Assembly: GCF_037975245.1 (NCBI RefSeq)
Contig: NC_092568.1
Location: forward strand, 27,896,501 to 27,960,500
Source: Apostichopus japonicus
Taxonomy: Eukaryota; Echinodermata; Holothuroidea; Aspidochirotida; Stichopodidae
Reading direction: 5' to 3'
Length of the DNA stretch: 64,000 bases
The notes under the pieces were generated by a model. That model was not told the origin of the DNA, did not search any database, and saw only the letters and a list, made by a program, of their open reading frames with translations. The stretch's first letter is position 1. Every line of letters starts with the position of its first letter. Below, in pieces: positions 3,978 to 59,892 of this stretch. The translations under genes and the position numbers were made by a program.

Positions 3978-4188
3978 CTCTCGACTTGTACTTTATACCG
4001 GTTCAGACGTACTTTCAGTAGACCAGTTTGGTCCCCTGAATTCTACCTTTCTACTTGTTGGTTTACTATTCTTTCCTTCTTTATTTTCTGTGAAAGGACG
4101 ATTGTATTTTCATTAAACCGACTGATTTGTTTATATCTGTGTATCAGGTGGGATTTTTCGACAATTTCTCTTCCATTCTTAGGTTGCC

Positions 4189-10300: not shown

Positions 10301-10477
10301 GAATTTTGTGTGACTTCATCTTCAATATATAAGTGTACAATTTGGAATTGCAGAATATCTCGCCTCAATAATAACTATCTTTGTGTCACGAACGACTTTA
10401 TTCATTGTACGTGTATTCAGTATATGCTGGTCAGGGTGATAAGTAGGTCACTCGTCGTGACTGATAACCGTGTGTAA
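7305..10477 (+). pseudogene. LINE-B ORF2, 3' part: reverse transcriptase and C-terminal domain
   Basis: Continues the endonuclease (SIDRI, then SDHDF, the SDH motif near 7,395). A one-base loss near 7,815-7,822 shifts the frame; the following frame from about 7,825 restores the EEGEKS..KFFFNLEKS linker typical of L1/Tx1. RT runs through 7,866-9,540 with KIDQYKAFD near 8,484-8,510, RQGCPLS near 8,661-8,681 and the catalytic HADD near 8,787-8,798. A second shift lies at about 9,540-9,560. The C-terminal region then runs to 10,300 and contains the CCHC-like pattern YCTFCK-...H-...C (10,120-10,175). An in-frame TAG at 10,298 interrupts what looks like continuing C-terminal sequence (SIYKCTIWNCRISR) up to 10,475-10,477. 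Confidence 0.83.
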
Positions 10478-12228: not shown

Positions 12229-12439
12229 ACAAATCAAAGATTTGCACTCATCTTGTTCAGTTTTAGCGTACCTCATTAACAACGACTACTTTTGCTTCAC
12301 TCAACGTAAATAGACTACGGGACAACCAGAAATGTTCACAGATTCCACAACGGACCAAGATTTTTAAATTTAATATCATACTGTACATGTCGTGTATATT
12401 TTATGTAGTGCTGTATAATCCATTTAGTACTCAACCTGG

Positions 12440-12660
12440 TGTTTTTAAACATCAAGGCTGTGCTTTCTATAACAGCGCTTTATGGGTCTTCAACATCACT
12501 TATAATCTTACTGATTGTTGTAGGGCTGTATATGTGCTGTATATGTCATGTAGGGCTGATCCTAAGTTTTTCAGGCGCCATTGTTGTTCTTCCCATAACA
12601 GTACTTTACGGGTATTTAACGCCAATTATAATCTTATTGATTGTTGTAGGGATGTTCATC
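12440..12660 (+). repeat. Imperfect 126-bp tandem duplication
   Basis: The block ATAACAG..CTTTA.GGGT.TT.AAC....TTATAATCTTA.TGATTGTTGTAGGG occurs at 12,469 and 12,595, exactly 126 bases (42 codons) apart. The second copy runs into the endonuclease-like fragment. It also generates a hydrophobic frame that I do not consider a real protein. Confidence 0.7.
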
Positions 12661-12990
12661 CCACCACCCCTGGTCACAATTGGCTTCGTGTCAGCAAAGG
12701 CCAACGTCCTAGAATTGATCGGATCTATTCCCCGAAAGAATGTGTTGTTAACAAAGCGACTACGTCGCCGATCCCTTATTCTGACCATAGACCTGTCCAG
12801 GACAATATGGAAGAATTACGGGCTTACTTTAAGCTATGGTCTACTCCGAATACTGATTTTAATGCATTAGGTGATTGGTGGGAGAGTGTTAAAACCAGAA
12901 CTAAAATGCTTGCTTGCCGTTCGACAGGGTACTCGCATAGCTCGTCAGTAAAGAAAACAGCTCACAGAGCTCCAAACTCTTTGTTTAACT
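12606..12990 (+). pseudogene. Fragment of a second Tx1-like LINE ORF2 (endonuclease C-terminus and linker)
   Basis: The frame contains NLIDC-RDVHPTTPGHNW, then RIDRIYSPK, then a YSDHRPV motif. This is the order at the C-terminal end of APE endonucleases of L1/Tx1-like LINEs. It is followed by FKLWSTPNTDFNALGDWWESVK, a pattern like the WW-containing linker after the Tx1 endonuclease. No start, catalytic N-terminal half or RT accompanies it. It is not LINE-B: the corresponding LINE-B linker is different. It sits directly upstream of LINE-A copy 2 on the same strand. Confidence 0.6.
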
Positions 12991-13000
12991 TCAAATTGCC

Positions 13001-15964
13001 ATGGCATTACCCGCTGATAACATAAACATTGAACGGAGTAATCCAGATGTCAACCATCTGGTACATACTCCATGTAAATACTTTGATATTGATTCTTTTA
13101 ACAAGTTATGTCTAGCAAACAAAACCGGTTTCACGATATTCCATCATAATAGCCGTAGTCTTATCAAAAATTTCAACGACATAACAACTTTTATCTCTTT
13201 ATTAAGTAACGACTTTTCCATTATTGGTTTCACAGAAACGTGGTTCAATAATCGTAGTTCCCCCCTTACTCATTTAAATAACTATACTCTAGTAGAAAAT
13301 CACCGTGACGAGAGAAGGGGTGGCGGGGTCTGCTTGTTTGTTAATAATAATATATGTTTTAAGGAGCGGCTAGATCTCTCCATTTTTAATGAGAGTATTG
13401 AATCTATATTTATAGAAGTAACTGAAACGCATACTAAGAAGAAAATGATTATTGGTTGTATTTATAGACCACCCAGCGGTTCAATTGACGATTTCAATTT
13501 CAATGTACAACATATTTCTAATATAATAAGTCATCACAATTATGATTCATATATAATGGGAGATTTTAATATTGATTTATCTGATGTAAACAAATCAACA
13601 GGTTTTCTTAACATATTGTACTCTACCGGATTCAATCCCACAATTACTAAACCCACTCGTATCACTGCAACCTCAGCAACTATACTTGATAATATTGTAA
13701 CAAATGTCGAATCCACAACCATACCAGGAATTCTTGTAACCGATATAAGTGATCATTTTCCAATATTCCTTTTGATTCCTACCAAGAATAACAGACCAAT
13801 GAACTTCATGTACAGGCGAAATTATAAACCAGGTAACATCAGGCGTTTTAACTATGAAATTGAAAACAAAAACTGGAACGATGTTTTAAGCCAAACTGAT
13901 GTTAATGCTGCTTACAACACTTTCTTTGAATCCTTTAATTATACCTATAATAATTGTTTTCCAATTTGTTATGTAAGCAAAAGGAAACGACGTAAAAAGA
14001 AACATCCATGGATTACAACTGGAATGTTGAAATCTATCAAAATAAAGAACAAGCTCTTTAAAAGTTATTTAACAGCACCTACTGATGTTAACAAGGCTAC
14101 GTATAAGCATTATCGCAATAAGCTTAACCATATTATTAGATTTTCTAAAAGATTGTATTTCTATGATAAATTCAAAAATAATAGAAATAATATAAGTGTA
14201 ACTTGGAATACAATTAACGAAGTTCTAAACACCAACCGAAAAAAAGGTGGATATCCTGCTGCTTTTAAAACTGGTGATCAAGAAATCAGCAACGAGAATG
14301 ACATTGCCAGCTACTTTAACAAATATTTTGTAAACATTGGACCCTCACTTGCAAGAAATATTACAAATAAAGGTAGTACAGAATATCTTATTCATAATAA
14401 TAACAGAAACAGTCATGCTATGTTCATTAATCCTGTCAGTGAGGAAGAACTTTCAATAGTTGCTATTTCCAGCCTGAAACCAAAAAAAGCAGCGGGATAT
14501 GACGATTTTAAACCTGATATAATAAGAAATGTTATTCACTTTATCGCCAAACCATTGACTTATATTTGTAATTTATCTTTTACTTCTGGTACATTTCCAG
14601 ATAAACTAAAGATTGCTAAGGTTATACCAATTTTTAAAAAAGGTGACCAAGATGTATATGAAAATTACCGTCCTATTTCTTTATTATCATGTTTTTCAAA
14701 AATTATTGAAAGGCTTATGTACAATCGTATCTTTAAGTTTCTAACCAAGTTTAATATCCTGTGCAATGATCAATATGGCTTCCGCCCAAAGCATTCTACA
14801 GAACTTGCTTTGGCAAATGCTATTGAAAAAATATGTACAAGTCTTGATAATACCAAAATATGTATTGGAGTGTTCCTCGATCTCTCCAAGGCATTTGATA
14901 CTATTGACCATACCATTTTGCTAAGTAAATTATCTTTGTATGGTGTAAGGGGAACAACCCTTGACTGGTTGAGCAGCTATTTATCCAATAGACATCAGTA
15001 TACTTCATATAAAAACTCTAAATCCGAACACGCTGTAACCCGTTGTGGTGTTCCACAGGGCTCAATATTAGGACCACTGTTGTTCATAATTTATGTCAAT
15101 GACATTTGCCAGGTGTCAAAAATTGCCAAGACTATTTTGTTTGCTGATGATACCAATATTTTCTTCGAGTTCGAAAACGTACATAGAATTCATGATACTG
15201 TCTCTACTGAATTAACTAAATTTACTTACTGGTTTGCTGCTAATAAGTTATCACTTAATGCAGACAAAACTAACTATATAGTATTTAATGGAAGAAGAAC
15301 GCTTAACTGGAATAATGACATAATAATGGACGGTAAAGTAATTAAACAAGTATCAACTACTAAATTTCTAGGGGTTAATATTGATAGTAAACTTACATGG
15401 AGTGACCATATTACAAAAGTTTGCACCAGCGTTGCAAGAGGTGCAGGAATTTTAGCAAAGCTAAAACATTTCCTCCCCCAGAATATACTCAGAATGCTTT
15501 ATCAAACTTTAATAGCACCACATCTGTATTACTGCTTGATTATCTGGTCTGGTACAAGTGTTTCTCATTTAAGTCACCTTAAAATACTTCAAAAGAGTGC
15601 AATACGTCATATATCTCACGCAGCACCGCGTGAACATACAAGCCCCCTCTTTAAGAAACTCAATTTATTGAAATTAGATGACATTATAAAAGTTAATATT
15701 GCAACATTTACATACAAGGCTTGGAATGGATCATTGCCAATCAGTTTTCGAAATTTTATAAACAGCAACACAGATTTCCATAATTATAATACCAGAACGG
15801 CTAGCAACGCACATTATAAATCATATAAAACACGCACTGGTATGTTAAGCCTCAAAAACCGTGCAACCAAAATTTGGAATTCACTGTCAATAACTTTAAA
15901 AACTAAGAAAACAAGCTCCATATTTAGTAAATGTCTTACTAAAGAAATTATTATGTCTTATTAA
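13001..15964 (+). CDS. LINE-A ORF2 polyprotein: APE endonuclease + reverse transcriptase, intact
   Basis: 987 codons without a break. The APE endonuclease nicks target DNA and the RT copies element RNA there (target-primed reverse transcription). Endonuclease motifs: TETW with catalytic Glu 79, RGGGV 106-110, YRPP 155-158, GDFN 187-190, SDHFP 250-254. Basic linker 327-334. RT motifs: NYRPISLL 555-562, YGFRPKHST 592-600, DLSKAFD 627-633, VPQGSILGP 684-692, catalytic FADD 714-717. The C-terminal portion (HLYYCLIIWSG, HAAPREHTSPLF, NRATKIWNSL) is shared with copies 1 and 3. No RNase H or zinc-knuckle C-terminus is seen. ATG 13,001 sits in CCATGGC, a good context. Length suits CR1/L2-type ORF2. 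Confidence 0.92.
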   Translation: MALPADNINIERSNPDVNHLVHTPCKYFDIDSFNKLCLANKTGFTIFHHNSRSLIKNFNDITTFISLLSNDFSIIGFTETWFNNRSSPLTHLNNYTLVENHRDERRGGGVCLFVNNNICFKERLDLSIFNESIESIFIEVTETHTKKKMIIGCIYRPPSGSIDDFNFNVQHISNIISHHNYDSYIMGDFNIDLSDVNKSTGFLNILYSTGFNPTITKPTRITATSATILDNIVTNVESTTIPGILVTDISDHFPIFLLIPTKNNRPMNFMYRRNYKPGNIRRFNYEIENKNWNDVLSQTDVNAAYNTFFESFNYTYNNCFPICYVSKRKRRKKKHPWITTGMLKSIKIKNKLFKSYLTAPTDVNKATYKHYRNKLNHIIRFSKRLYFYDKFKNNRNNISVTWNTINEVLNTNRKKGGYPAAFKTGDQEISNENDIASYFNKYFVNIGPSLARNITNKGSTEYLIHNNNRNSHAMFINPVSEEELSIVAISSLKPKKAAGYDDFKPDIIRNVIHFIAKPLTYICNLSFTSGTFPDKLKIAKVIPIFKKGDQDVYENYRPISLLSCFSKIIERLMYNRIFKFLTKFNILCNDQYGFRPKHSTELALANAIEKICTSLDNTKICIGVFLDLSKAFDTIDHTILLSKLSLYGVRGTTLDWLSSYLSNRHQYTSYKNSKSEHAVTRCGVPQGSILGPLLFIIYVNDICQVSKIAKTILFADDTNIFFEFENVHRIHDTVSTELTKFTYWFAANKLSLNADKTNYIVFNGRRTLNWNNDIIMDGKVIKQVSTTKFLGVNIDSKLTWSDHITKVCTSVARGAGILAKLKHFLPQNILRMLYQTLIAPHLYYCLIIWSGTSVSHLSHLKILQKSAIRHISHAAPREHTSPLFKKLNLLKLDDIIKVNIATFTYKAWNGSLPISFRNFINSNTDFHNYNTRTASNAHYKSYKTRTGMLSLKNRATKIWNSLSITLKTKKTSSIFSKCLTKEIIMSY

Positions 15965-16065
15965 TTATGATTTAGCTGCATAGTCGCATAGCAGCATATT
16001 CACATATTGAAGCGTTTACGTATTGTTATTAACATTATTTTCACTATTTTCTATCTTTTCTTCAT

Positions 16066-16115
16066 GGGAGTCTTCTGTTTTGTTAAGCCAGCATAGGCTT
16101 TTCAGAAGACTTCCA
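16066..16115 (+). other. Conserved 3' UTR hairpin of LINE-A copy 2
   Basis: GGGAGTCTTCTG (16,066-16,077) pairs with CAGAAGACTTCC (16,103-16,114), allowing one G-U pair. The inner stem is AAGCC/GGCTT. Both outer-apex and inner-stem bases differ from copy 1 in a pairing-preserving way. Confidence 0.78.
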
Positions 16116-16163
16116 TTCACATTGTAATATTTATGTGAAAAAACAAATAAATGAAATGAATGA

Positions 16164-16424
16164 ATTTACACAGAACGATATTGTGCTCTCAAAGAAAGAA
16201 TCGAACAGCTATACTTACCATCTGGATAGGGGTTAACTTGTATACAGTACGTGTTGACGTAATCAGGGTCTGGTCTTTTGACTTTGCTTTAGACATTGTT
16301 GTCTTTGTATATATTTTCTTGTGTCTGTGGTGTTTAGTAATTTAGTTTTCTCTTAACTTAAACATGAGTAAATGTTAAGGTAATTATTATTTAATGTTCT
16401 AGTTAAAACAAATCATACTTAAGT
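16164..16424. other. Spacer between LINE-A copies 2 and 3
   Basis: AT-rich. No supported gene. On the minus strand there is a donor-like GTAAGTATAG near 16,214 following a short open stretch, too little to call an exon. Confidence 0.45.
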
Positions 16425-16427
16425 ACG

Positions 16428-16935
16428 AAATTGAAACACTACCTGCACAACACATATTAAAGACCCTTTATCAAACTTTAGTGGTCCCACATTTTTCTTA
16501 TTGCTCGATAATTTGGTCTGGTACACGTGATACTAATGTTAAGCCACTTATTATATTACAAAAGAAAGCTGTCCGCCACATATCACATGCTGCACCACGT
16601 GATCACACCAACCTTCTATTCAAGGATCTGAATGTATTGAAAATTAATGACATAATACGTGTAAATCTTGCCACCTTCACTTATAAGGCTTGGAATGGAC
16701 TCCTACCTAATGCATTTCATAATTATTTAATCAGTAATTCGGATATACATCACCACAACACAAGACATGCAAATCATGCGCATTATATCACAACACGAAT
16801 ACCTCAACAGGAATGTTAAGCCTCAGAAATCGAGCAATAAAAACCTGGAATTCTATTACTGACATTATTAACAATAAATTATCGTGTAGGACATTTAGAA
16901 AATGTTATATTAAAGAAATAATTGCATCATATTAA
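16428..16935 (+). pseudogene. LINE-A copy 3, ORF2 C-terminal remnant, frameshifted
   Basis: Reads LPAQHILKTLYQTL, then HFSYCSIIWSGT and HAAPRDHTNLLF as in copy 2. A shift lies near 16,440 and another near 16,795-16,805, after which GMLSLRNRAIKTWNS continues to the stop TAA at 16,933-16,935. It aligns to the end of the intact ORF2. Confidence 0.85.
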
Positions 16936-17012
16936 TTAAACTATCATATAATTGATTTATTGTCGAAACGTTTAATTTGATCTTTAATTTTTTCTTCTCT
17001 TTTCTTTCTTCA

Positions 17013-17058
17013 GGGAGTCTTCTACATTGTTAAGCTATTGTATGCTTTATAGAAGACT
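17013..17058 (+). other. Conserved 3' UTR hairpin of LINE-A copy 3
   Basis: GTCTTCTA (17,017-17,024) pairs with TAGAAGAC (17,050-17,057), with a loop stem AAGC/GCTT. The apex pair is again changed on both sides relative to copies 1 and 2. The basal GGGA/TCCC part is lost on the right arm. Confidence 0.72.
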
Positions 17059-17115
17059 ATCTTTCACCTTGTATATTTGCACGTGAAAAAACAAAATAAA
17101 TCAAATCAAATCAAA

Positions 17116-17198
17116 GTTTTAATTATGTAAATAATACCATTGTAAATAATGTTGTCCGTGGGTGAGCCAGTGGGCTCATCTCCCAATAAAAGAAAAAA
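17116..17198 (+). mobile_element. Short retroelement 3' end with hairpin and poly(A), directly abutting the satellite
   Basis: About 80 bases: GTGAGCC-AGT-GGGCTCAC-like hairpin (TGAGCC/GGCTCA, 17,162-17,178), an AATAAA signal near 17,184 and an A-rich end (GAAAAAAAAA). The satellite starts immediately after the A run, in mid-unit (ATGGCTTGGCGCACTG). The source family is unknown. Confidence 0.5.
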
Positions 17199-20100
17199 AA
17201 ATGGCTTGGCGCACTGTACGAGCTGATGATCGAGACTCTCTTTTGGATCCGTGGTTCGGACCCCGGTGACGTCTTTTGCCGATCTTTTACAGCTCGTGCC
17301 TGCACGGGGAGCTGTAAGTATAAGTTAATCAACCTAATATCTCAGTCCATACGGTGGCGCGATGGCTCCGCGCACTGTACGAGCTAATGATCAAGACTCT
17401 CTTTTGCATCCGTGGTTCGAACCCCGGTGATGACGTCTTTTGCCGATCTTTTACAGCAAGTGCCTACACGGGGAGCTGTAAGTATTAGTTAATCAACCTA
17501 ATATCTAAGTCCATACGGTGGTGCGATGGCTTGGCGCACTGTACGAGCTGATGATCGAGACTCTCTTTTGCATCCGTGGTTCGAATCCCGTTGATGACGT
17601 CTTTTGCCGATCTTTTAAAGCAAGTGCCTACACGGGGAGCTGTAAGTATTAGTTAATCAACCTAATATATCAGTCCATACGGTGGCGCGATGGCTCCGCG
17701 CACTGTGCGAGCTGATGATCGAGACTCTCTTTTGCATCCGTGGTTAGAACCCCGGTGATGACGTCTTTTGCCGATCTTTTAAAGCAAGTGCCTACACGGG
17801 GAGCTGTAAGTATTAGTTAATCCGCCTAATATCGCAGTCCATACGGTGGCGCGATGGCTTGGCGCATTGTGCGAGCTGATGATCGAGACTCTCTTTTGCA
17901 TTCGTGGTTCGAACCCCGGTGATGACGTCTTTTGCCGAACTTTTACAGCTCGTGCCTACACGGGGAGCTGTAAGTATTAGTTAATCCGCCTAATATCTAA
18001 GTCCATACGGTGACGCGATGGCTCCGCGCACTGTACGAGCTGATGATCGAGACTCTCTTTTGCATCCGTGGTTCGAACCCCGGTGATGACGTCTTTTGCC
18101 GAACTTTTACAGCTCGTGCCTACACGGGGAGCTGTAAGTATTAGTTAATCCGCCTAATATCTAAGTCCATATGGTGGCGCGATGGCTTGGCGCACTGTAC
18201 GAGCTGATGATCGAGACTCTCTTTTGCATCCGTGGTTCGAACCCCGATGATGACGTCTTTTGCCGAACTTTTACAGCTCGTGCCTACACGGGGAGCTGTA
18301 AGTATTAGTTAATCCGCCTAATATCTCAGTCCATACGGTGACGCGATGGCTCCGCGCACTGTACGAGCTGATGATCGAGACTCTCTTTTGCATACGTGGT
18401 TCGAACCCCGGTGATGACGTCTTTTGCCGAACTTTTACAGCTCGTGCCTACACGGGGAGCTGTAAGTATTAGTTAATCCGCCTAATATCTCAGTCCATAC
18501 GGTGGCGCGATGGCTCCGCGTACTGTACGAGCTGATGATCGAGACTCTCTTTTGCATCCGTGGTTCGAACCCCGGTGATGACGTCTTTTGCCGAACTTTT
18601 ATAGCTCGTGCCTACACGGGGAGCTGTAAGTATTAGTTAATCCACCTAATATCTCAGTCCATACGGTGGCGCGATGGCTCCGCGCACTGTACGAGCTGAT
18701 GATCGAGACTCTCTTTTGCATCCGTGGTTCGAACCCCGGTGATGACGTCTTTTGCCGAACTTTTACAGCTCGTGCCTACACGGGGAGCTGTAAGTATTAG
18801 ATAATCCGCTAATATCTCAGTCCATACGGTGGCGCGATGGCTCCGCGCACTGTACGAGCTGATGATCGAGACTCTCTTTTGCATCCGTGGTTCGAACCCC
18901 GGTTATGACGTCTTTTGCCGAACTTTTACAGCTCGTGCCTACACGGGGAGCTGTAAGTATTAGATAATCCGCCTAATATCTCAGTCCATACGGTGGCGCG
19001 ATGGCTCCGCGCACTGTACGAGCTGATGATCGAGACTCTCTTTTGCATCCGTGGTTCGAACCCCGGTGATGACGTCTTTTGCCGAACTTTTACAGCTCGT
19101 GCCTACACGGGGAGCTGTAAGTATTAGATAATCCGCCTAATATCTCAGTCCATACGGTGGCGCGATGGCTCCGCGCACTGTACGAGCTGATGATCGAGAC
19201 TCTCTTTTGCATCCGTGGTTCGAACCCCGGTGATGACGTCTTTTGCCGAACTTTTACAGCTCGTGCCTACACGGGGAGCTGTAAGTATTAGTTAATCCGC
19301 CTAATATCTCAGTCCATACGGTGACGCGATGGCTCCGCGCACTGTACGAGCTGATGATCGAGACTCTCTTTTGCATCCGTGGTTCGAACCCCGGTGATGA
19401 CGTCTTTTGCCGAACTTTTACAGCTCGTGCCTACACGGGGAGCTGTAAGTATTAGATAATCCGCCTAATATCTCAGTCCATACGGTGGCGCGATGGCTCC
19501 GCGCACTGTACGAGCTGATGATCGAGACTCTCTTTTGCATCCGTGGTTCGAACCCCGGTGATGACGTCTTTTGCCGAACTTTTACAGCTCGTGCCTACAC
19601 GGGGAGCTGTAAGTATTAGTTAATCCGCCTAATATCTCAGTCCATACGGTGGCGCGATGGCTCCGCGCACTGTACGAGCTGATGATCGAGACTCTCTTTT
19701 GCATCCGTGGTTCGAACCCCGGTGATGACGTCTTTTGCCGAACTTTTACAGCTCGTGCCTACACGGGGAGCTGTAAGTATTAGATAATCCGCCTAATATC
19801 TCAGTCCATACGGTGGCGCGATGGCTCCGCGCACTGTACGAGCTGATGATCGAGACTCTCTTTTGCATCCGTGGTTCGAACCCCGGTGATGACGTCTTTT
19901 GCCTATCTTTTACAGCTCGTGCCTACACGGGGAGCTGTAAGTATTAGTTAATCCGCCTAATATCTCAGTCCATACGGTGGCGCGATGGCTCCGCGCACTG
20001 TACGAGCTGATGATCGAGACTCTCTTTTGCATCCGTGGTTCGAACCCCGGTGATGACGTCTTTTGCCGAACTTTTACAGCTCGTGCCTACACGGGGAGCT

Positions 20101-46323: not shown

Positions 46324-47640
46324 ACTGCACGGGGAGCTGTAAGTATTAGTTAATCCACCTAATATCTCAGTCCATACGGTGGCGCGATGGCTCCGCGCAC
46401 TGTACGATCTGATGATCGAGACTCTCTTTTGCATCCGTGGTTCGAACCCCGGGTGATGACGTCTTTTGCCGATCTTTTACAGCTCGTGCCTACACGGGGA
46501 GCTGTAAGTATTAGTTAATCCACCTAATATCTCAGTCCATACGGTGGCGCGATGGCTCCGCGCACTGTACGAGCTGATGATCGTGACTCTCTTTTGCATC
46601 CGTGGTTCGAACCCCGGTGATGACGTCTTTTGCCGATCTTTTACAGCTCGTGCCTACACGGGGAGCTGTAAGTATTAGTTAATCCACCTAATCTCTCAGT
46701 CCATACGGTGGCGCGATGGCTCCGCGCACTGTACGAGCTGATGATCGAGACTCTCTTTTGCATCCGTGGTTCGAACCCCGGGTGATGACGTCTTTTGCCG
46801 ATCTTTTACAGCTCGTGCCTACACGCGGAGCTGTAAGTATTAGTTAATCCACCTAATATCTCAGTCCATACGGTGGCGCGATGGCTCCGCGCATTGTACG
46901 AGCTGATGATCGAGACTCTCTTTTGCATCCGTGGTTCGAACCCCGGTAATGACGTCTTTTGCCGATCTTTTACAGTTCGTGACTGCACGGGGAGCTGTAA
47001 GTATTAGTTAATCCACCTAATATCTCAGTCCATACGGTGGCGCGATGGCTCCGCGCACTGTACGATCTGATGATCGAGACTCTCTTTTGCATCCGTGGTT
47101 CGAACCCCGGGTGATGACGTCTTTTGCCGATCTTTTACAGCTCGTGCCTACACGGGGAGCTGTAAGTATTAGTTAATCCACCTAATATCTCAGTCCATAC
47201 GGTGGCGCGATGGCTCCGCGCACTGTACGAGCTGATGATCGTGACTCTCTTTTGCATCCGTGGTTCGAACCCCGGTGATGACGTCTTTTGCCGATCTTTT
47301 ACAGCCCGTGCCTACACGGGGAGCTGTAAGTATTAGTTAATCCACCTAATCTCTCAGTCCATACGGTGGCGCGATGGCTCCGCGCACTGTACGAGCTGAT
47401 GATCGAGACTCTCTTTTGCATCCGTGGTTCGAACCCCGGGTGATGACGTCTTTTGCCGATCTTTTACAGCTCGTGCCTACACGCGGAGCTGTAAGTATTA
47501 GTTAATCCACCTAATATCTCAGTCCATACGGTGGCGCGATGGCTCCGCGCACTGTACGAGCTGATTATCGAGACTCTCTTTTGCATCCGTGGTTCGAACC
47601 CCGGTGATGACGTCTTTTGCCGATCTTTTAAAGCAAGTGC
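46324..47640 (+). repeat. Higher-order duplication, 4-unit block (offset 658) next to the right edge
   Basis: The private variants TACGATCTGATG (46,403 and 47,061), GATCGTGACTC and CTAATCTCTCAG repeat in order at a distance of 658 bases. Confidence 0.85.
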
Positions 47641-47810
47641 CTACACGGGGAGCTGTAAGTATTAGTTAATCCGCCTAATATCTCAGTCCATACGGTGGCG
47701 CGATGGCTCCGCGCACTGTACGAGCTGATGATCGAGACTCTCTTTTGCATCGGTGGTTCGAACCCCGGTGATGACGTCTTTTGCCGATCTTTTACAGCTC
47801 GTGCCTGCAC

Positions 47811-47879
47811 CTTCTCCTGGTTAGTTCCTCTCACATCGATGTAGGAACAGTCTGAGGAAGCATAGTGGCATGAGATTGC
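47811..47879 (-). CDS. PHYH: PHYH exon 7, cut by the satellite array
   Basis: Acceptor TTTCTTTATAG. Codes 23 residues, [20 protein letters not shown] then QEK, aligning with the PHYH C-terminal region. At 47,810 satellite begins with no intervening base. The frame stays open through the satellite for 60 more codons of non-PHYH sequence, stopping at 47,628. The junction reads AAG|GTGCAG, so a weak splice donor made from the satellite cannot be excluded. Confidence 0.88.
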
Positions 47880-50800
47880 CTATAAAGAAAAATTCAAAAT
47901 TTAGCGATTTTCGTAAATATTATCAACACGACATCACTTCCATATGCAAGAAAGCCATTACATCTCAATTCTCTGGTACTCACCTTTTGTTGTTTTGTAA
48001 ATCACTATAATTACGGACAATTCGTAACAATACCTCTTCTTTTCTGCATGCTGGGCTTATAAATCAACCCGCCTTTGTGACAAGCACAAACACATACTGC
48101 TCTTGTTTAGCATAACTTTCGTCAGAACCACTTTAAAGCAGAACAGTGCAGAGCCTCATTAGACATGGCAGTATAATCACAAACTGCAGACACTAGATCA
48201 GATGTTTTAATTCATTATTATATCCTCAGGCCAACACCAACCAATGGAAATTTACAGTAAAGACATAAGAAATGACAACAAATTAACTGCTTTTTTTAAC
48301 ATTTTAGATTCTATTAACATGTTTGCTAAATATGTATGGGTTTAGCAATAACTACAGCTGAATTTTCCATTTGTGTTGTAACTTTGCCACACTCTGACCA
48401 TGTCATATTATATTTGCAGACACTGATCAATTTAACTAATTAAGAAAGGGGAATGCATGGCTACTGCCAAATGGCTGTTGCTAGGTAGCTAGTTATTACA
48501 GTAATTGTTTAGTCCAACATAGACAAATTTGTGTTCCACAAAATTTACTGCAATCTGAAATGGTAAAACCAAAAACAACTTCTTTTGAAAAAGAACCATT
48601 TTGAGGTATGAAGCATCTGTTGTGATAATTATCCTTGATTATCTTATATTATATTTTAAGCTAATGACTTTGAATTGCATGTATTACCCTTGTCAGTATA
48701 TCTTAAACTTAACCTAGAGTTGATACAGCTTACTGTTAAGGAACAACTGATGTTTATGTTCCAGTTGTAGTTTTAACTCACCTTTCTGAATCCACTTGTC
48801 TTGTTGGATCCTGAACCATGGATCAAGAGCGGGTGAAAGAATACAGTGTCACCTTTCTCCATTTCCAAATGAACTCTTGGCATGCTGGGATCAAAACTCT
48901 GAGTGCCGTGGTAAAGCTTATTCACTCCCATCTGATTGAAGATCAATGACAAAACGTATAGTGAAATAGTTGAACAAGTTAATACTGATAAATTAATACT
49001 GATAATACTTTTAAACTCACTGATTCTTTTAAGCGAATTTTGACTAACTTTTCTTCAGGAAGGACTTCAGGAAGGACATGACTAACTTTTCTTCTGTCCC
49101 CCTCCTTCTCCCCTTGTTTCCCCCCCCCCCATCACTCCTCTTCTCATAGCTCTCTTCCACCCTTTTTTCTCCACACCTTTCTGTCTTTGTCCCTCCACTG
49201 TTTATCTCCTACTTCTCCTCTTCCCCTGTTGGTTTCTTTCTTTCTTTTCTCCATCCCTTGTCTACTAATCCCCTTACATCTATCTCTTTGTAATCACCAT
49301 GCTCATTAACCTGTCTGTATTCTGTGTGTGTTTTTGTCCCTCCTGTTACTGTTACTTGTCATTTAGCCTTTGCAGAAGATCCTGCTAGGATCAAAACGTC
49401 AGGCCAACTAACTTTTACACAAGCGAATTATATGTTAGATACTAAGATAATTAGGTCATTTGGGAATTTTTTCGTATACCAACTTAGGTATAATTTTGGG
49501 GAATGTTTAGTTATCACATTTGTGTATAATGTTCTTCAGTTTATCTGCTTTAATACAAACAGCCTGAACTACATTAGTGACCCTGCTAAAAAGGAAAAAA
49601 ATGCAGTAGCTGCAATTGTGCCTATCAAACAGGGCAACAGTGCCTATTGGCAACAATGTCCATCAAACAGGTCAACAGTGCCTTCTGGCAACAGTACCTA
49701 TCAAACAGCTGCAACACCCCTTCAGCAAGGCTAAATCAATATCAAAGGCAACAGTGCCTATTGTATGAAACTGCACACCACAATAAAATGATATCCTTCT
49801 CAGCCTGGCTGCATGATGTTGCAGCCCATCCCCCCTCGCCTACCCCAGCATCCTACTTTTGACATGGTGCTTTACAGAAATCCATTTTGCATTCACACTG
49901 GTAAGAATAAACACAATTCAGTAATAGGTTATTTGCAGGGAATAATTTATCCATTATAGCATCACAACGTACTATGCAAGCAAAACTAACAAATTGCGAT
50001 ACAAGTGCTAAGTCGTATGTGAGTTTTGACACACAGGAACTATAGCATTTTATATGAGAGAGTCTAACTGCCTTCAAAATTGCTACGCAAAACCTGAAGA
50101 TATCAACTTGGACTTTGACACAACAGTCCAGGTAAATTTCTACTTGAAATAGTGACTGTTAGTTGGAACAGTCAACAAACTACTGTAATTAGTTTTACTG
50201 TGAACCAACCCACGTTTGTTTAGCAGATCGACATGTAAAGAAATTGACAAATCTAACAAATGAGGATTTCAATGTGATAATATTTCAATGATTGAACACT
50301 TGCTACCAAAGAATAATACATCTTTCTTCTGAAAGACTCAACCATTCAATATATTTATTTTTCAAAACTACAGAAGGTCATCAAATACCACTCCTGCAGC
50401 CCTGCTAATGGCTCCAGAGAAAGAATCAATGTATCACTCTGGAATGTCTTGCAGCACTCTAAATTTGCTGAAACAAGACTTGGGCACCAATCTATCCACA
50501 TCATACACAATGCAATCGGTTCCAATCATGAATTTTCTGCACTCATGTAACCTTTTCCACGAAACATTTCTGCATGTTGTGACCCAAAAAAACCCCCCAA
50601 ACAAATGGTTCCTTTACAACTTATTAAACTTGAAATCTGACTCAAGAGCCAGTACATGTAATATCCTTGGTTAAGTCAACATTTAAACCTCATCACAAAC
50701 TTGTTCAGACACTTTTCAAACACAAATACTAAAATAATAGATATTTTCACCAAACAAATAAAAATTAGAAAATTGCATTTCACATAAATGACGGGAGAAA

Positions 50801-53800
50801 AAATTTACCAAAAAAAAACCTTTTCAGATTTCTATGTAAAAGTCAGGAATTTTCTAATCCAATTTTCCTTCCCACTTTACGTTTCTTATCTAGCCAAGTC
50901 CATAAATAACATCTTCCTTGTTTCCCAGAGAAGGACATAACAAGGGATGCTGAATATATATGTACACACCTCCCAGTCTGGATACCCATGGTCCAAGAGA
51001 TCCCCTTTGTGACTGCCAGGGACCACCACAAGGCACCCATTGGCACGATTGACTTTCTCCATGGCTGTCCATGATGCAACAATATTTTCTGCTGGCCTGA
51101 AGGGAAAGTAGTACAGGTCTTGGTGCAATGGATGACGAGAGGTCAAGGTACCTGTCAATAAATCAAACGCATTATGTGTAAGATGTTAACCCTTTATTTT
51201 CTTCTGACAGAGATATAGGGACATTGAAAAAGTCTCACAAGGATAAATAAAATTACAATGGTGTACAATTATATATATAAAAATATTTTCACCTTTGTTT
51301 TCTTCACTGACAATTGGGTTTTTTACAATGCAATTAACACCAATTGCAAACAAACTTTCTAATATAAATATCAGGGCCAAAAAATTTAGTGTTTGCTGAT
51401 TTATACCCAATATAGAGTGACCATATGTTTTCTTTTCCTTTATTTAATCAAGTTCTACAAGTCCAGCCTCTGACCATGCAAACCAGCGTTCGCATTAAGA
51501 CGCGCTATTGTGGGATTCCCGCCATTTATCTAGAGGGTCCTGCAAAAATATTTTTTCCGGGGGAAATTTCCCGCAACAATTCCTGGTAGTTCCCGCAACT
51601 TCCATTACTGTAGTTACAAAACCTGCCAATAAAATGCTGGATACTATAAAGTTTTGTTAACTCCTGTAAGGAGTAATCTGATTGGTCATATCTTTCCAAA
51701 AAGAAAACACTGGCATTGTTAGTGCGGCACTGCACAGTGTGTATGGCCGCAATGGTCGACCATGTGTACCGCACTGAATGCACTATATGTGCGCTAAATC
51801 TTGGTATGGGCATATGTACGTATACATCTACTGTAACTTACTAACATCATGACATCCCCCCCCCCCAAAAAAAAAATGAAAAAAATGCAAATCCCAGCAA
51901 AGTTTGATAATCCAGCCTAAAAAAAATTGACTGAGGGGATTTCCCCACTTTTTCAAATTCCTAGCGCAAACATTGATGCAAACTGAATGATCTTCAAATG
52001 TACTATTAGTCTGGGGCATTAATGTTAAACCTAGATGTTTAAAACATTGAAAATCATGATAACTCATGTTAAATTATGTTACTTTCCAACAAACACTCCA
52101 TTCTAAATAGGGTAAAAAAAATATCGTTTGCTTATTACATGACATGCAATGACTTTAAGTAAACTACACTTTTACTATAGCCAAGTACTTTAACTATGTT
52201 CAATGATTTTGCAAAGTCAAGTCTCTGACTGTGCAAAATGGATGACCTTCAAATATACTGTTAGTCTTTTATGTTAGTGTTTACCATAGATGTTGATAAT
52301 GTTGACAAAGTATGTTGCAATAATTTTCCAAACAAAGACACCCTTCCCAAGGTACCGTAGCGACTTAAGGCTAATTAAGTTACTAATAAGCTACTGTAGT
52401 GAGTTGAAAATAGGTCCTTAGTACAATCATGTTATTGTTCTTCTGCAATTGACTGGCTCATGAATTATTCATAGCTTGGTCCACATGGGCAGCATGTGGT
52501 CAACAGCATCTCTTTGTCTATAACCTCACTTTCCCTGATTTTGTTAATGTAGATACATCTTTAAGCTAAAGTAGTGCTGCTTAAATTTCATCCTGTAAGT
52601 CTGTTTTATTATTGATTCTTACTTTTCTTATGTATACATGTTTAAAATACTTATAATTTGGTGCTATAGTCAATTCTCTGAAGTAATATGGGGTTTGGAT
52701 GTAATTATTAAGAATATCCATGCGCTTGTTAGCCTGAGTTTATGCTAATGCACCCTCCTGGCTTGGCGTGGGTAGAGTTGCATGTGGGAATTTCAAGGAG
52801 CATGATCTTTATTAGAAAAAGAGAAGAAAAGTTGTCCGTTTCCAGTATAAAACGATGATAAAGAGTTAATTTTGGTTCAGTTTGGTGAGTAAATTCTAAT
52901 ATTGTCACACCTGTTTCTTTAGTTGTTGTTTTGGTTAAAAATGAGGCTATAAGATATTGATTGAAATTATGTATAATCACGATATTGTTTAAGTGCAAAT
53001 TGGTCACTTAAATAGTGTGGGGGATCAGTTCCACGAAATTTAACGTTACAAAGTTAAGAGTTTCTATTTGTATGAAATTTCGATGTGATTTATTCAGCTT
53101 CATATTACAGCATGTGAGCACTCAATTTATATCTTATGTAAGCTTAATTTTATATTTTATTTATCCATATTCCATGTTACAAATTCAGTGTGTGTAATTG
53201 ATAATTTCATCAATTCTTGGAGGGCCTAGGTTACACTTTTTGGCAAGAATCAGAGGGATAAGCCTAGACTGTTCACATTGTGGTTATATAGGCATGGTAG
53301 GGAGTAATTGTACTGATCATTCAGCAGTGTTTCTTTCTGTGTTATTAATATTTTACTGTTAATATGTTGAACCTCAGTAAAAGAATAATGTAAGATTAAG
53401 ATGATTGTCACAATATGTATTTAAGGATCAGTGCATATTACAATTCTGTATAGCGACGTAACACTGGTTATAAGGATATTGCAGTGGCTTATATCTTTAT
53501 AGTTATAAATGTTCTCTTGTTCATTGTTTGTTGTTTATATGATTTAAGTGATAAGGTTTACAATGGTCAGTAACTCATTGTTCACCATTTTTTAATTGTG
53601 TTTTATGAACCGTATATCATTAGCTGTATGTTGGTTTTATTAATTCAGGCTACTCGGTTGTGCGATGGTGAAGGTCTATCTACGAGGGCACAACTTGTAA
53701 TTGACATATTTGGCTTGGTGAGTAGGTACAGAGAGTCAAGCAGTTTGTACAGTTAAAGGAGTTGTTGTTATTCTGTTCCATTTTAATGTTGATATTTTGT

Positions 53801-56800
53801 TTTCTGATTTGATCTGGTTGTCTTATTTCACCTAGAGCTGGTTTAACAAGAGAGATTATCATTCCATAATTCACCTTCTGTATTAAAGAGTATCTGTTGG
53901 GAATGTATTTCAGCTTTTAATAGTAGCTTGTTATCCTTTATTAGTTTGTGTTGTTGAGATATTAGATTTCTGAGATTATGCAAGGTTGGTAAAATGTCAT
54001 TTAGACTACGAGTTTCAGTTCACTACGAATGTGTTCCTGTTTTGTATTTATCTCTGTAACACTAAGATGGTTGTTGTGTTGTCATAGTTTGTGATATAGT
54101 TGATTACATTGATTACTTTTCTTTATGATTTTATAAGCAAACATCACCGTAGGGTTGTGTGAATTGTGCTAGGTTTTCTGAGGATATGTATGTGTTATTT
54201 AATCAAGTTATATCTCATACCATGGTATTATAGTGTTTTCAACTTATGGTAACTGCCAGTCCCATCGTTTATCTAGGAGTAAGACAATTCTATTAAACAC
54301 ACCAATATCTGGTTAACTTTAACTCAGATAGTACTATACTTTGTTCAAACACAAATTATTGTATCAAGATTGTTTATATCAGCTACTTGGATGATTTCCA
54401 ACATTTAGGTATTATAAAAAAAAGACTTGGAAATTAATCTAATTTTGATCAAATGCTTTTACAATTTAAGTGAACTAAAAAATTGTATAATTTCTGCTTT
54501 CCTGATTGATTATCCATAAAAGAACAAGGAAGTATGAACACAACAAACAAAATATTCAACAATGGCTACCAAATCAGTAAGCTGGCTGTAATGCTTTGAG
54601 AAGAAAATGATAATCAAACTCAGGACAAAAAACAAGGCTGTAATAGGCTCACCCATCAGTATCAAAGAAGATGATTTAAGAAAAAGACAATGGATTTTGT
54701 TTACACTTCTTAGGGGTGGGGGGGGGGGGAGGGAGGGAATTGATAAGGTATCAAACTTGAAAGCAGCCCGTGTTTTTCGTAGTCACATTCCACTTCTCAT
54801 TAGGTAGAAAGGGCACTTGAAGTTTGAACAATGCTGATATAGACCAGCAGAAGTCAATAACTGTTTGTTCAGATCATGAAACCCACAGTAAGTCATGACC
54901 GGCCTAGTGACGATGTTAAAGGTCTTTCCCTCCTTATCCTATGTAAGTCAGGTTAAGCTTTGTAATTCTACTATGAATAGATCTATCATACATTTGTTTG
55001 TTTTGTGTTTGTTCATTATCTATTGTTTTTTGTCAAGGGGGGACTGCTAGAATAAGCTATGCTTCCTCAGTCTTCCTCCACCACCTTGTAAACATGTTGC
55101 AATTTATTGTATATTTGCACTGTGGAAATAAACTCAAACTCAATCTTATCATCATATTAGCTAACGATCAATGACTTTGTGTCCCCTTTAAAGTTTTTCA
55201 CCTTCTGTTTTCCAGGATGTCAGTATTAGTGATCACTCACCTGGATCTGGTGGTTTGTTGATCAGCATTGAATGCATGGCTTTGATGTTTGGTCCAGTGA
55301 AACAAGTAACATAGTGAAGAATCTGGAAAAGATGCAGAATAAATACATGTAATAATTCTACACATATACATTCTAAAAATGCTCCATAAATGCGAGAACT
55401 GAAAGGAAAACAAGGTGTGGTAAAGTGTTATTCACAAGTATTTTTTGTATTTGGAATTATTGAATTTGGCAGACGATGATCTTACCACAGAATCCAAAAT
55501 TGCAATAACAACAAAAAAGTCGAAAGAGTCCAGTGTTTTCCATTGCAGTTGGATGACTTGTACAGATAAAGTTTGGCAAAACAACACAGCTTAGTTCAAT
55601 GTTTTACACCATATTTGTGATTTACCTCTGGCAGGCAACAGTATTCAAAGAGGATGGGGTCATTGTATAACTCCTGTATCTTGTTGATGGCCTTCTCTCC
55701 TGTCACATACTCCGATGAAATGATGCTAACATCCTTCATGACAATAAGACCAGGGACCTTAACATCTCCTCGACAAATTTCCTCAAATCTCTTCCTGTTG
55801 AAAAATTGATTTTTGGGGTCAACAGTGCAAAGATATCACAACTCAAATCTTTTAACAATTTTAACATGTACACTACATTACACTATATACGGTTAACAAT
55901 TAGGTCCTTTTGCCCCTATCCTATTGACACACAATTATGAAACTTATATTGAAGAGTAAGTATTCCACATGCACTAGCTGAAACCCCATATCAATATTTT
56001 GCCCCTAACTTATGATATGGCTGATTGAATGTAAGCTATTTTGATTGGCTCAACCTTCAACTACTACAGGAAGTTGGATGACAGAAGTGGGTTCTGTGGT
56101 TTCATCAAAATGACCTTCAAAAGCTTTACTTAGGCTATTATAATAATCTTCTTATTGATCTATCCTTGAAACCTGATAGTTGGAATGTATGTTTAGCTGT
56201 AAAAAGTCTCTGGACTTAGCATTTTCATCAAAATGCATCTTTTTTGTAGAAATATTCTTTTCCTCTGTGGATAAATGATTGACAAATTGTAATAGAGACA
56301 TTTTCAGCTGAATTTCCCCTGATGAAATCATCCATTCTGTTGTTACTGGATACACTTAAAACTGATTAGAAAATTTTAAAACTTCATATCTTTGTGATAC
56401 AAGATGCTAATAAATAAGACAATTCTTAGCAATTTTGTTAAGCATTCAACAGCCACCAGAAAATCCTTCTACAGGAAGCTAAAACTTGTTATTTAACCCT
56501 GATGCAGCAGCTGTCAAAAACACTTGAAGTGCAAAGGACAATTTTTATGAATAAACAGCAATTGACAGAAATTCATGGAGGATTTATCTGAGCTGCACTG
56601 TTAGGCTAAAGTAAACAAACAAACACAGATTTACAATCAATTGCTTTATTTATTTCCTTAATACACACATTCATAACTGGAATATAATTTGTTTTAATCA
56701 GCTGACTGAGAACAGTCCACATAGATGGTGGCCTCTGGCAATCAGAGAGATGAGGCAACTGAACTTGAAGGCCTTATTATGAATTCCATTGTAAACATGG

Positions 56801-59800
56801 CCACAGTGATAACCATCTTGACATTCTTCCTTTTGCAATAATATTTTAACACACAATATAATAATCACACAATCATGACGATACACTTTTCATCAAAGGT
56901 TCGGCCCATTTGTTAGAGATCAGGTGAATGAATAAATCCAAAAGTAAACATTGCCTTTGTCTAATAACACATTAACGGTTTTTGGTTACAACATTAATCG
57001 GACGATACATTTGCTAGCACATGTATTGTCTTGACATACAAAAATAATGTAGACTGGACAATTGACAATTATTACTGCCCAGGCTTAGTGCAGTCAACCT
57101 CTGGCAAAGCACTTAAAGGCTCAAGGGTATTTTGTTGAAGTTGTCTGTTAAATGACTCGCTCTTCTATGGAAATGTTATTTTGAGAGAGAGGGAGAGACC
57201 TGAAGCAATGAACTCCATGACAGACTTTACGTACAATACAGTTGGTTCTAGGCATTGTGATTGCGTTAAAAATACACAGCCCAGCAATAGCCCATTTTAC
57301 AGTGTTTGTTAAAGGGTGTGAAGACTCGCGCAAAAAGAAACGTCTAATGCTGGTAATTTGACCTAGTTTCGAATGAGATGTAACAGAAGTGTTAAACACT
57401 ACCATCGATCCCAGAAAATACACACACAGCTTGCTACCGTTGGTAATTAGACACTAGTGCACAGTCAGTACATACAGCTACGGTCAATACCCACAGCACA
57501 AACGATACAGTGATGGACATCTCAGGTCCAGCTAAAGATAACAATTAAGGTATATCACGTTTCATTACTGTCTGCATTTTGTAGCGACACGAACAAAACG
57601 TCACTTGCAAGTAACAGAAAGTTAACTTTTTCAGATGGAACCACACGGCTTGGGGCGAGTCTTCAATGCCTTTAAGCTGATACAGTACAGTACATTGCAC
57701 AATCCTTCACAATTTTAAATTAACATTGAACAATGCATTTTGACTTACTTGTATCGGTGCAGCTTGTCATCAGTGACAAGATTCTTGATCACCAAGAAAC
57801 CATTTTTGTTGTAAAATTCAATCTGTTCTTCCGATAGATGCGAGTTCTTCTTAACATATTCTATTGGTCTTTGACTATGAGAATACAGCGAGTTCACATC
57901 ATTTAGTGTCTTTGTTGGTATATTAAGGATAAACTTGGTACAATACATACATTTGACTTGGATACATTTGACCTAGAAAGTGTACACATAGCCAGAGACT
58001 CTAAAACTGGACTTGTGGGTGCAATTTTTTACACCAGCTGGTAGCACTTTGGTTAAACTACAGATGCAAAATCCCACCTGATTTTGCAATGTGTATGGTT
58101 TTATGTGCATAATTAACTAATTAGTATCTATATAGGTCAAATATGACAATTATAGCAACTTTCTATACTGTGTCTTAAACATTTGTAAACACAAAATCAT
58201 CTCCAAATATTGTCCTAGGTGCATTCAAGTGTTGCTGTTTTGAAACCTAGTAAAGTGACATGTCTTCTTGACTATTCAATCCTTAGTGTGAAACCAATGG
58301 ACACCGACACTTTTTATGTAAGGTTCATGTACATATATTGGATAGGGTGGACACTAACATGATTTCATCAAGGAAGAGAAGGAATCTAAGAGATAACATG
58401 AACAGCTGCTAGTCATGAACCATGTTTCACAGCTTGTGTCTAAATATGAACCCAAGAAATTTAGAATTTCAAAAATCCTGTTAATAAGATCATATTAACT
58501 GTATTAAAATTGCATTTGTTCTGCACAGACTGAAATACATATTCATGCATTCATGGAGGCCAATAAAGTACATCTGCAACTTAAAGAGTGTGTAGGATTC
58601 CATAAATATTGACAGTCGATCATTTTCTTCAAATCCTTTTATTAAAATGTTGGATATACTTGTGTCTTATGACTGCACATAATTGTCTGGCCACGTCCAG
58701 CCACCCACGTGTGGGGAACATTGAACTAAATGGTCTGCAAAGTGCAGTAATTGATATATATTTTACGTTTCCCATATAAGTGTATACACCATCGAAAAAG
58801 AAATGGTGGGGCTTATTCGCAGGGCAGCCCTGCGAATAGCCAGACACATACACCTTATTCACAGGGCAGCCCTGCGAATAGCCGGACAAAAGCATCTTAT
58901 TCACAGGGCAGCCCTGCGAATAGCCAGACACATACACCTTATTCGCAGGGCAGCCCTGTGAATAGCCAGACACAAGCATCTTATTTGCAGGGCTGCCCTG
59001 CGAATAGCCAGACACATACACCTTATTCACAGGGCAGCCTTAGACTGGGTTAACGGGCTCAGTAATTTTTGGGGGCTATTCGAGTTTGCTTTTGGGGCTA
59101 TTCGAGTTTGCTTTTGGGCACCAGCTATCTTTTTGAGAGTCTTAATTGGGAGCCTCTATATTTTGAGGAATTTATTGGCCTTTGGGATTCCTATCTTAAT
59201 GCTGTTAGGATTGGTTTTGGTAGCCTAGGGCCTTAAGATTGAACCAGTCTAGCATTAGTACCGCCAACATAAAAATGTCATCCCACGATCATTTTCACCT
59301 TTGTTTTTGCAGAGTGACTGCTCGTTTGCATGTAAAGGTGTGGGAGGTGGGGGGGGGGGTGTCACACCTTTGACCATATTGGCTTTCAGGCAATATCGGC
59401 TTTTGGGGAATCCCAAGATAAGCTCCCTTAAAATAAGCTTTTAAACTTGAACTGCTGGGGCTCCAAAAATTAGCTAATGAAGTGGCTAAGACTATTTGGG
59501 CCCAAAAGGTTGGCTTTTTAAGGCCCCTAAACTGACTGGTATCAATAGCAAAACCTAATAATAAACCTATTTTCAAAATCGTCGCAGCCCTGCGAATAAG
59601 AAGTCTGTGTACTTTATTCGCCGGGCTGCCCTGCGAATAATCACTTCGAAAAGAAATCGCGACTTCGCTGAACTACTCTTAAAATACCTTCTGTGTAATC
59701 ATAGCCTAGGGTGACTTACTGACTGATGTACTTTCAATGTACTATGCTATTCATAGACCTAAGGCTAAGTTATGTCCTATTTTCCGTCCTAAATTATGCC

Positions 59801-59892
59801 TAACTGGGAATTTTTAAAAAGGATACGATCTGCACATCATCAGTTGATGATTTTAGGTGCCTCTCGAGAGTCTTTAACCGTGAGGATGCCAT
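47811..59892 (-). CDS. PHYH: Phytanoyl-CoA 2-hydroxylase (PHYH), multi-exon gene, 3' end lost at satellite
   Basis: Peroxisomal Fe(II)/2-oxoglutarate dioxygenase that 2-hydroxylates phytanoyl-CoA, the first step of alpha-oxidation of branched fatty acids. Seven coding segments on the minus strand read as one protein: [88 protein letters not shown]. The iron-binding H-x-D (LHQD, exon 5) and distal His (LLIHGSG, exon 6) and the 2OG-binding Arg (GFRK) are present. Exon lengths 169, 82, 182 and 150 and their phases match human PHYH as I recall it. The first exon encodes a PTS2-like signal. The reading frame meets the satellite after ...GTNQEK; about 40 C-terminal residues expected for the family are missing from the window. 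Function of this copy is therefore in doubt. Confidence 0.9.
47880..48781 (-). other. PHYH intron 6
   Basis: AT-rich intron with GTGAGT donor and TTTATAG acceptor. No repeat or nested gene recognised. Confidence 0.8.
48782..48931 (-). CDS. PHYH: PHYH exon 6 (third Fe ligand and 2OG Arg)
   Basis: 150 bases, acceptor CAATCAG, donor GTGAGT. Encodes [11 protein letters not shown], then [17 protein letters not shown], where His of LLIH is the distal iron ligand. SNKTSGFRK follows, with the Arg that binds 2-oxoglutarate in the family. Confidence 0.95.
49086..49265. repeat. Pyrimidine-rich tract
   Basis: About 180 bases almost wholly C and T on the plus strand, with a run of 11 C near 49,120. Low complexity, in PHYH intron 5. 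Confidence 0.85.
49620..49712. repeat. Imperfect ~38-bp minisatellite, about 2.5 units
   Basis: Alternating words CCTATCAAACAGG-CAACAGTG and CCTATTGGCAACA recur at a period near 38 bases. A further stray word lies near 49,750. Confidence 0.7.
50970..51151 (-). CDS. PHYH: PHYH exon 5 (Fe-binding H-x-D)
   Basis: 182 bases, acceptor TTGACAG, donor GTGTGT. Encodes [16 protein letters not shown], where His and Asp of LHQD are the first two iron ligands. It continues with [20 protein letters not shown] and ends in YPDWE. Confidence 0.95.
51152..55240 (-). other. PHYH intron 4
   Basis: About 4.1 kb. Low-complexity spots at 51,856-51,886 (C then A runs) and 54,716-54,733 (G run). It includes a probable retroelement 3' end (separate entry). 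No nested gene supported. Confidence 0.75.
54900..55145 (+). mobile_element. Probable 3' end of a truncated LINE or SINE in PHYH intron 4
   Basis: A T-rich non-coding stretch, then GGGGGGACTGCTAGAATAAGC, then GCACTGTGGAAATAAA and a tail of repeated AAACTC words (55,130-55,145). A poly(A)-like signal plus simple-repeat tail suggests a LINE/SINE end in plus orientation. The family is not recognised. Confidence 0.4.
55241..55322 (-). CDS. PHYH: PHYH exon 4
   Basis: 82 bases, acceptor TTTTCCAG, donor GTGAGT. Encodes [20 protein letters not shown], then INKPPDP, leaving one base of a split Gly codon. Confidence 0.94.
55323..55625 (-). other. PHYH intron 3
   Basis: 303-base intron, GTAAAT donor and TTTTCCAG acceptor. 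Nothing else seen. Confidence 0.85.
55626..55794 (-). CDS. PHYH: PHYH exon 3
   Basis: 169 bases, acceptor CAACAG, donor GTAAAT. Encodes [16 protein letters not shown], then MKDVSI, ending [10 protein letters not shown] in phase 0. Confidence 0.93.
55795..57748 (-). other. PHYH intron 2
   Basis: About 2 kb with GTAAGT donor and CAACAG acceptor. Open frames inside (for example 91 codons at 57,148-57,423, minus) resemble nothing known and lack support. Confidence 0.75.
57749..57874 (-). CDS. PHYH: PHYH exon 2
   Basis: Acceptor CTGTATTCTCATAG, donor GTAAGT. Encodes [10 protein letters not shown], then [20 protein letters not shown]. This start is in phase 2, like human intron 1, but does not fit the phase 0 donors of exon 1. 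An alternative acceptor (CTTTCTAG) would start the exon at 57,972 in phase 0, adding 33 residues, or a small exon lies unseen between. Confidence 0.85.
58812..59039. repeat. 42-bp minisatellite with palindromic core, alternating two unit types
   Basis: About 5.4 units. Each contains TTCGCAGGGC-A-GCCCTGCGAA, an almost perfect inverted repeat with a one-base centre. The 3' parts alternate between AGACACATACAC and a GACA(A/C)AAGCAT type in the order A-B-A-B-A, so the true period is an 84-base dimer. Open frames on both strands here are repeat artefacts. Confidence 0.9.
59040..59583. mobile_element. 544-bp insertion interrupting the 42-bp minisatellite
   Basis: GCAGCC occurs at 59,034-59,039 and 59,584-59,589 on either side. 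Removing 59,040-59,583 with one copy restores a minisatellite core exactly (ACAGG-GCAGCC-CTGCGAATA). Starts TTAGACTGGG, ends AAAATCGTC. No terminal inverted repeats or poly(A). It contains a 22-base direct repeat, GGGGCTATTCGAGTTTGC plus TTTT, at about 59,073 and 59,094, and a G run near 59,350. Class unknown. Confidence 0.6.
59584..59640. repeat. Continuation of the palindromic minisatellite after the insertion
   Basis: A half core GCAGCCCTGCGAATAAG, then a 14-base spacer unlike the main array, then a complete palindromic core (TTATTCGCCGGGCTGCC and on, 59,614-59,640). Confidence 0.75.
59827..59892 (-). CDS. PHYH: PHYH exon 1 (start codon, PTS2-like signal)
   Basis: ATG at 59,892-59,890 in context ACCATGG. 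The first residues are [13 protein letters not shown], which contains R-L-x5-H-L, the peroxisomal targeting signal 2 pattern, at residues 5-13. Vertebrate PHYH also uses an N-terminal PTS2. The donor is not certain: GT occurs after codon 19 (59,836) or codon 22 (59,827), both phase 0 and both weak. The frame closes at a TAG about nine codons later. Confidence 0.6.

Follow-up and report, generated by a model that had tools for sequence, protein, structure and literature searches.

The PHYH gene that breaks off within the window (the 64,000-nucleotide stretch of Apostichopus japonicus DNA analysed here, C8:27,896,501-27,960,500) is, with a probability of roughly three in four, a partial duplicate whose cut edge was joined to an existing satellite array by microhomology. 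Two PHYH copies lie on the same scaffold and share a long stretch of homology, and in the window copy this homology ends at a junction with 164-bp satellite. The end of PHYH is present in this genome, in the other copy; what the window shows looks like a commonplace broken duplicate amid repeats and not like the loss of the gene. Searches were performed against 671,581,487 bases in 35 contigs. The A. japonicus assembly is reported to comprise 671.60 Mb in 34 scaffolds, with chromosomes of 18.21 to 46.02 Mb, and to have been built with HiFi/hifiasm and Hi-C (PMC10344927).

The satellite array occupies positions 17201 to 47810 of the window on the plus strand (186.7 copies with 97% matches by TRF), and its right edge is fused to a PHYH exon. 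The 185 units between the anchors had a mean identity of 98.2% to the consensus, with a minimum of 92.7%. As an earlier note on this DNA had claimed, the satellite abruptly replaces the exon at 47,810. The array ends within coding sequence. On the plus strand the satellite reads GCCTGCAC and then GGGG, the window reads GCCTGCAC and then CTTCTCC, and the exon of the other copy reads CCTGCTTCAC and then CTTCTCC at the same spot (CTTCAC|CTTCTCC). The three bases CAC at 47808-47810 are common to the satellite and to the exon of the other copy. Among 153 matched units the TGCAC form is found in 30 and the TACAC form in 123, so the last unit at the junction is ordinary satellite. The note had left it open whether the array begins inside the exon or at its edge. 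It begins inside the exon and not at a donor, because the exon of the other copy, 135 nt long, continues past the junction spot for 22 more codons to a normal donor, GAG|GTATGG; 72 nt of it, including the three shared bases, are left in the window. The frame stays open for 60 codons into the satellite on the minus strand (47628-47810), as had also been claimed, and reaches a stop at 47630-47628, which would give a hypothetical chimeric tail. The junction is base-exact, with coding DNA on one side and satellite on the other, and the breakpoint of the truncated copy lies at the array edge.

The PHYH exons of the window are all encoded on the minus strand. The retained 5′ part of the truncated exon (47811-47879, 69 nt) follows an AG acceptor and reads to GTNQEK. 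The exon at 48782-48931, with AG/GT edges, runs from MGVNKLYHG to TSGFRK and carries the histidine of LLIHGSG and the arginine of GFRK. Four further exons match human PHYH, namely 50970-51151, which ends in PDWE, 55241-55322, 55626-55794 and 57749-57874. The probable first exon (59827-59892) contains RLKTLERHL, which we take to be a PTS2-like motif, and the other copy has an equivalent ATG stretch at C8:28,229,900. The phase of this first exon is incompatible with that of the next one found, and the 5′ model of the gene may therefore lack an exon. A 42-bp minisatellite of 5.4 copies (TRF, 58812-59039) lies between these two exons. The joined window exons matched human PHYH (phytanoyl-CoA 2-hydroxylase, PDB 2A1X) with E = 5.1e-117, and the alignment places HQD, the H of LLIHGSG and the R of GFRKAIS at what are presumably the iron/2-oxoglutarate residues of the PHYH family (HxD, distal His and Arg). 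The PHYH part of the window copy stops at the residue matching position 270 of the 2A1X chain. The complete C-terminus, present in the other copy, is absent here; the window copy ends after GTNQEKV, 38 residues short of the end that the other copy has.

The search for a second PHYH copy or a C-terminal exon that the earlier note had proposed found a copy with an intact end at C8:28.22 Mb. This copy (C8:28,218,831-28,229,900) is on the same strand of the same scaffold, 275 kb from the window copy. A search of the genome with Pfam PF05721 returned five hits, of which the window copy and the second C8 place account for two each and C22 for one, and the domain scored above the cut-off at two places in each of the C8 copies. 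All six internal and 3′ exon pieces of the window gene are also present in the second copy, which goes on to a last-exon acceptor, TTTGATCAG|GATGTC, at 28,218,884 and an end DVWRLRSRLVQGEDLSM followed by a stop, so that its last exon completes a C-terminus like the human one. When the window exons were translated together with the last exons of the second copy, the protein aligned with residues 14-305 of the 308 of 2A1X (E = 8.4e-125). The 1.5-kb stretch of the second copy that holds the half-exon and the last exon had one full match in the assembly, itself, and the other 45 matches were all intronic (query positions 810-1071).

The absence of the C-terminal ~40 residues from the window, including the far side of the array, was borne out by search. 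Comparison of the window left of 47,500 with 40 kb around the second copy did not find the PHYH end beyond the array; the only hits, two of about 100 bp (80-81%), fell in a repeat-like stretch. The proposal that satellite had truncated the gene is right for the window copy and wrong for the gene, since the copy at C8:28.22 Mb has its end intact. The enzyme most likely comes from that copy. With its last 38 residues missing and 60 satellite-coded ones expected in their place, the window copy is probably a young pseudogene, presumably without function. Automatic annotation could register two PHYH genes here.

The duplicated block begins at position 47805 of the window, extends to its end at 64000 and continues beyond it to C8:28,032,020. 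A collinear chain between C8:27,944,305-28,032,020 and 28,219,921-28,300,608 consists of 34 matches and 69,714 bases, with one match being 108 bp of satellite. Within a stretch of 88 kb about 70 kb is thus homologous, and another 3.5 kb lies beyond it. Substitutions were counted over 29 of the 34 matches and amounted to 2762 of 67,511 bases (4.1%), with single pieces ranging from 1.6% to 9.3%; because the five matches left out were the satellite match and four short ones, two of them only 76-78% identical, the value of 4.1% is if anything low. Past 28,032,020 comes a dispersed repeat about 0.8 kb long, and 0.9 kb beyond that coordinate homology resumes in a further piece (28,032,907-28,036,418 against 28,339,000-28,342,506) in which 28 of 3504 bases differ, so that divergence across all homologous pieces ranges from 0.8% to 9.3%. 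In the block of the window copy, 38 kb of the other locus is missing at the spot where the ~0.8-kb repeat lies. For the next 6 kb of the other locus beyond the further piece, nothing matched in the sequence that was read on the side of the window copy. The PHYH introns are retained and alignable in both copies, with 185 of 7342 aligned bases differing (2.5%), and about 1.9 kb of the PHYH stretch is found in the window only and was left unaligned. RING/NHL-like open frames, read by eye, are clustered within the block (C8:28,240,000-28,297,000 and the matching window-side part), and on that reading may represent TRIM-like genes.

In the explanation that we prefer, a copy of neighbouring gene-bearing DNA would have been placed, with its orientation unchanged, in a domain made up of 164-bp satellite arrays and retrotransposons. 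The copied stretch would begin inside the PHYH exon and span PHYH and the DNA upstream of it over about 88 kb, putative TRIM-like genes included. The exon edge of the copy would then have been joined to a pre-existing array via the 3 bp of microhomology, in the style of end-joining or template switching, a mechanism that we infer from the junction alone. The array would not have invaded PHYH, and the copied gene would simply end there, either through a cut made during duplication or through later loss from a larger copy of the stretch between array and exon. We infer duplication rather than allelism because both ends of the homologous part are bounded by satellite or transposon, because there are no gaps where the sequence was read, and because mean divergence is greater than the heterozygosity reported for A. 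japonicus. Against the duplication count the complexity of the copied stretch, with its missing 38 kb and uneven divergence, and the identity of the two copies over the first 201 bases from the junction.

In terms of coding sequence, the two PHYH copies differ at 6 of 777 bases over 259 codons, with four silent and two amino-acid changes (a count with rough exon edges gave 7 of 789), and the first 201 bases from the junction are identical. The resulting pN/pS of 0.16 gave no sign that constraint on the broken copy is relaxed. Without any constraint on the window copy throughout the divergence, 7.8 to 9.7 amino-acid changes should have accumulated, compared to the two observed (P for two or fewer, 0.016 to 0.004, with the background ratio assumed to be 0.05 to 0.3), an estimate that rests on one gene with few changes. 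So few changes mean that the truncation is young relative to the divergence, that the copies diverged as alleles, or that the copy is still used. For a partial duplicate, two amino-acid changes in 259 codons suggest that the truncation is recent relative to the divergence of the copies.

The main rival to duplication is that the two PHYH copies are unmerged alleles of one locus, or a misassembly, in a satellite domain that the assembler could not resolve; one haplotype would then have satellite where the other has the PHYH end. We consider this unlikely, though it is an alternative of some weight. The heterozygosity of A. japonicus has been given as 1.59% by k-mers, with a best simulated fit of 2%, and as 0.73% by read mapping (PMC5638244). 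The 2.5% divergence of the PHYH introns is not far above these values, but the mean over the counted block is 4.1%. The conservation of the exons in both copies would also agree with alleles, and the shortfall of amino-acid changes is explained equally well by an unmerged functional allele, by continued use and by a late truncation. The arrangement of the flanks argues the other way. The homologous part has satellite or transposon on both sides within 185 kb free of gaps, and an allele would thus need large changes at both ends. No N was found in 27,886,501-28,071,999 (185,499 bases) or in 28,193,500-28,313,499 (120,000 bases), with the interior of the second array lying outside these stretches. 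The earlier suggestion that two contigs had been wrongly joined through the repeat accordingly finds no support from gaps in the first of these stretches, and survives as a graph error or an unmerged allele. Long satellite arrays do lie between the copies, and a gap could be hidden in the second array, where the 121.5 kb between the stretches read was sampled by four 2-kb probes and 113.5 kb was left unread. Searches for an allelic partner of the stretch before the second array returned transposon copies and no match in the other locus; one 0.7-kb repeat of that stretch occurs there (28,319,179), among many copies.

Expression of the truncated copy as a peroxisomal variant of PHYH, tailed by 60 satellite-coded residues and maintained by selection, is improbable. 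The basis for such a variant would be that the start, the presumed PTS2-like signal and the catalytic motifs are kept, that there is little coding change, and that the frame is open to a stop.

The surroundings of the truncated copy are rich in satellite and transposons. It is flanked by the array of the window (array 1, 30.6 kb) and by a second array (array 2) with edges at 28,071,035 and 28,199,318. Nine 2-kb probes along the segment were all satellite in four cases, half satellite in one and satellite-free in four. The right edges of array 2 and of a small array (28,058,363-28,061,303) are both followed by one shared repeat (28,199,579-28,200,144 and 28,061,347-28,061,910; 97%), and array 1 is the only one of the three arrays examined at their right edge that adjoins an exon there. 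The 164-bp satellite was found on at least C2, C4, C5, C9, C11, C12, C16, C19 and C20; the genome repeat searches miss matches (one omitted its own query place), and such scaffold lists are lower bounds. A 157-bp tandem array (window 3008-3924, TRF) is partly like the 164-bp unit and passes into about 50 bp of it, and a repeat similar to this array (85-89%) follows array 2 at C8:28,200,142-28,201,043. A motif of the satellite unit, GGTTCGAACCCC, has 171 exact copies in the array and none on the plus strand of the remaining window. We take it to resemble the B box of tRNA genes, but this is only a lead, as ARAGORN found no tRNA in the window and Rfam gave no match for 46500-49500 at E up to 1. 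A literature search found no paper on sea cucumber satellite tandem repeats at centromeres, and none of the titles returned for A. japonicus satellite DNA was on the topic.

A LINE at window 3975-17200 is embedded in satellite, with the 11-base repeat ATGGCTTGGCG at both ends, and the left edge of array 1 is the 3′ end of this element. It has endonuclease, reverse transcriptase and zf-RVT domains, and a zinc-knuckle-like ORF below the Pfam cut-off. Its A-rich 3′ end meets satellite at TTGGCGCAC, or at most 6 bases away, at all seven loci read, six of which were chosen by a query that also contained satellite. A query taken from the stretch before array 2 gave eight other long copies of the LINE interior among the 40 of 493 candidates scored, and seven of the eight adjoin satellite-flanked places from the earlier genome repeat search. 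The LINE looks satellite-specific from these sites, and is possibly of the Tx1 kind. A second LINE (13001-17115; endonuclease, RVT_1), which we assume to be CR1-like, is seemingly nested in it and splits off its last ~85 bp. For further work, the abutment of a LINE on one fixed position of the satellite unit may be more rewarding than the PHYH edge.

These surroundings bear on whether the satellite expanded or was inserted into a complete PHYH at this place, with the expansion deleting the lost part, which we think has little likelihood. The satellite family does spread, as its arrays on many scaffolds indicate. However, the search beyond the array did not turn up the missing half-exon, and the left edge of the array is formed by the 3′ end of the LINE described above, embedded in satellite with the 11-base repeat at both ends, which suggests that satellite was present before the LINE. 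A tandem duplication with homologous left flanks of both arrays was also considered and is unsupported, the longest left-flank match being the 0.7-kb LINE end; the left flank of array 1 was compared with the stretch right of the array. Least probable of all, and contradicted as the earlier note's proposal, is an intronic array, with splicing from AAG|GTGCAG to a last exon far away: GTGCAG does directly follow AAG, but the other copy has no splice site there and reads AAGGTGAAG instead, in frame through to GAG|GTATGG and matching human PHYH (up to residue 305 of 308), and the search located the second half of the exon and the last exon at a single place, in the other copy at a distance of 275 kb.

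Compared with known systems, the window copy is similar to human PHYH (2A1X) in having the HxD and the later His and Arg motifs in its exons, and differs from it in stopping at chain residue 270, without the C-terminal end. The locus resembles an unmerged haplotype, or false duplication, in that two near copies lie on one scaffold of an animal probably of high heterozygosity. It differs in that there is no gap at either copy end where read, both flanks are different, and the mean divergence is above the heterozygosity reported for A. japonicus. Unprocessed duplicated pseudogenes in segmental duplications at satellite DNA are a known kind. In contrast to these, the window copy has little coding decay, and its domain is only possibly pericentromeric; like them, it has kept its introns, has a second copy with an intact end, and is bounded by satellite and transposons.
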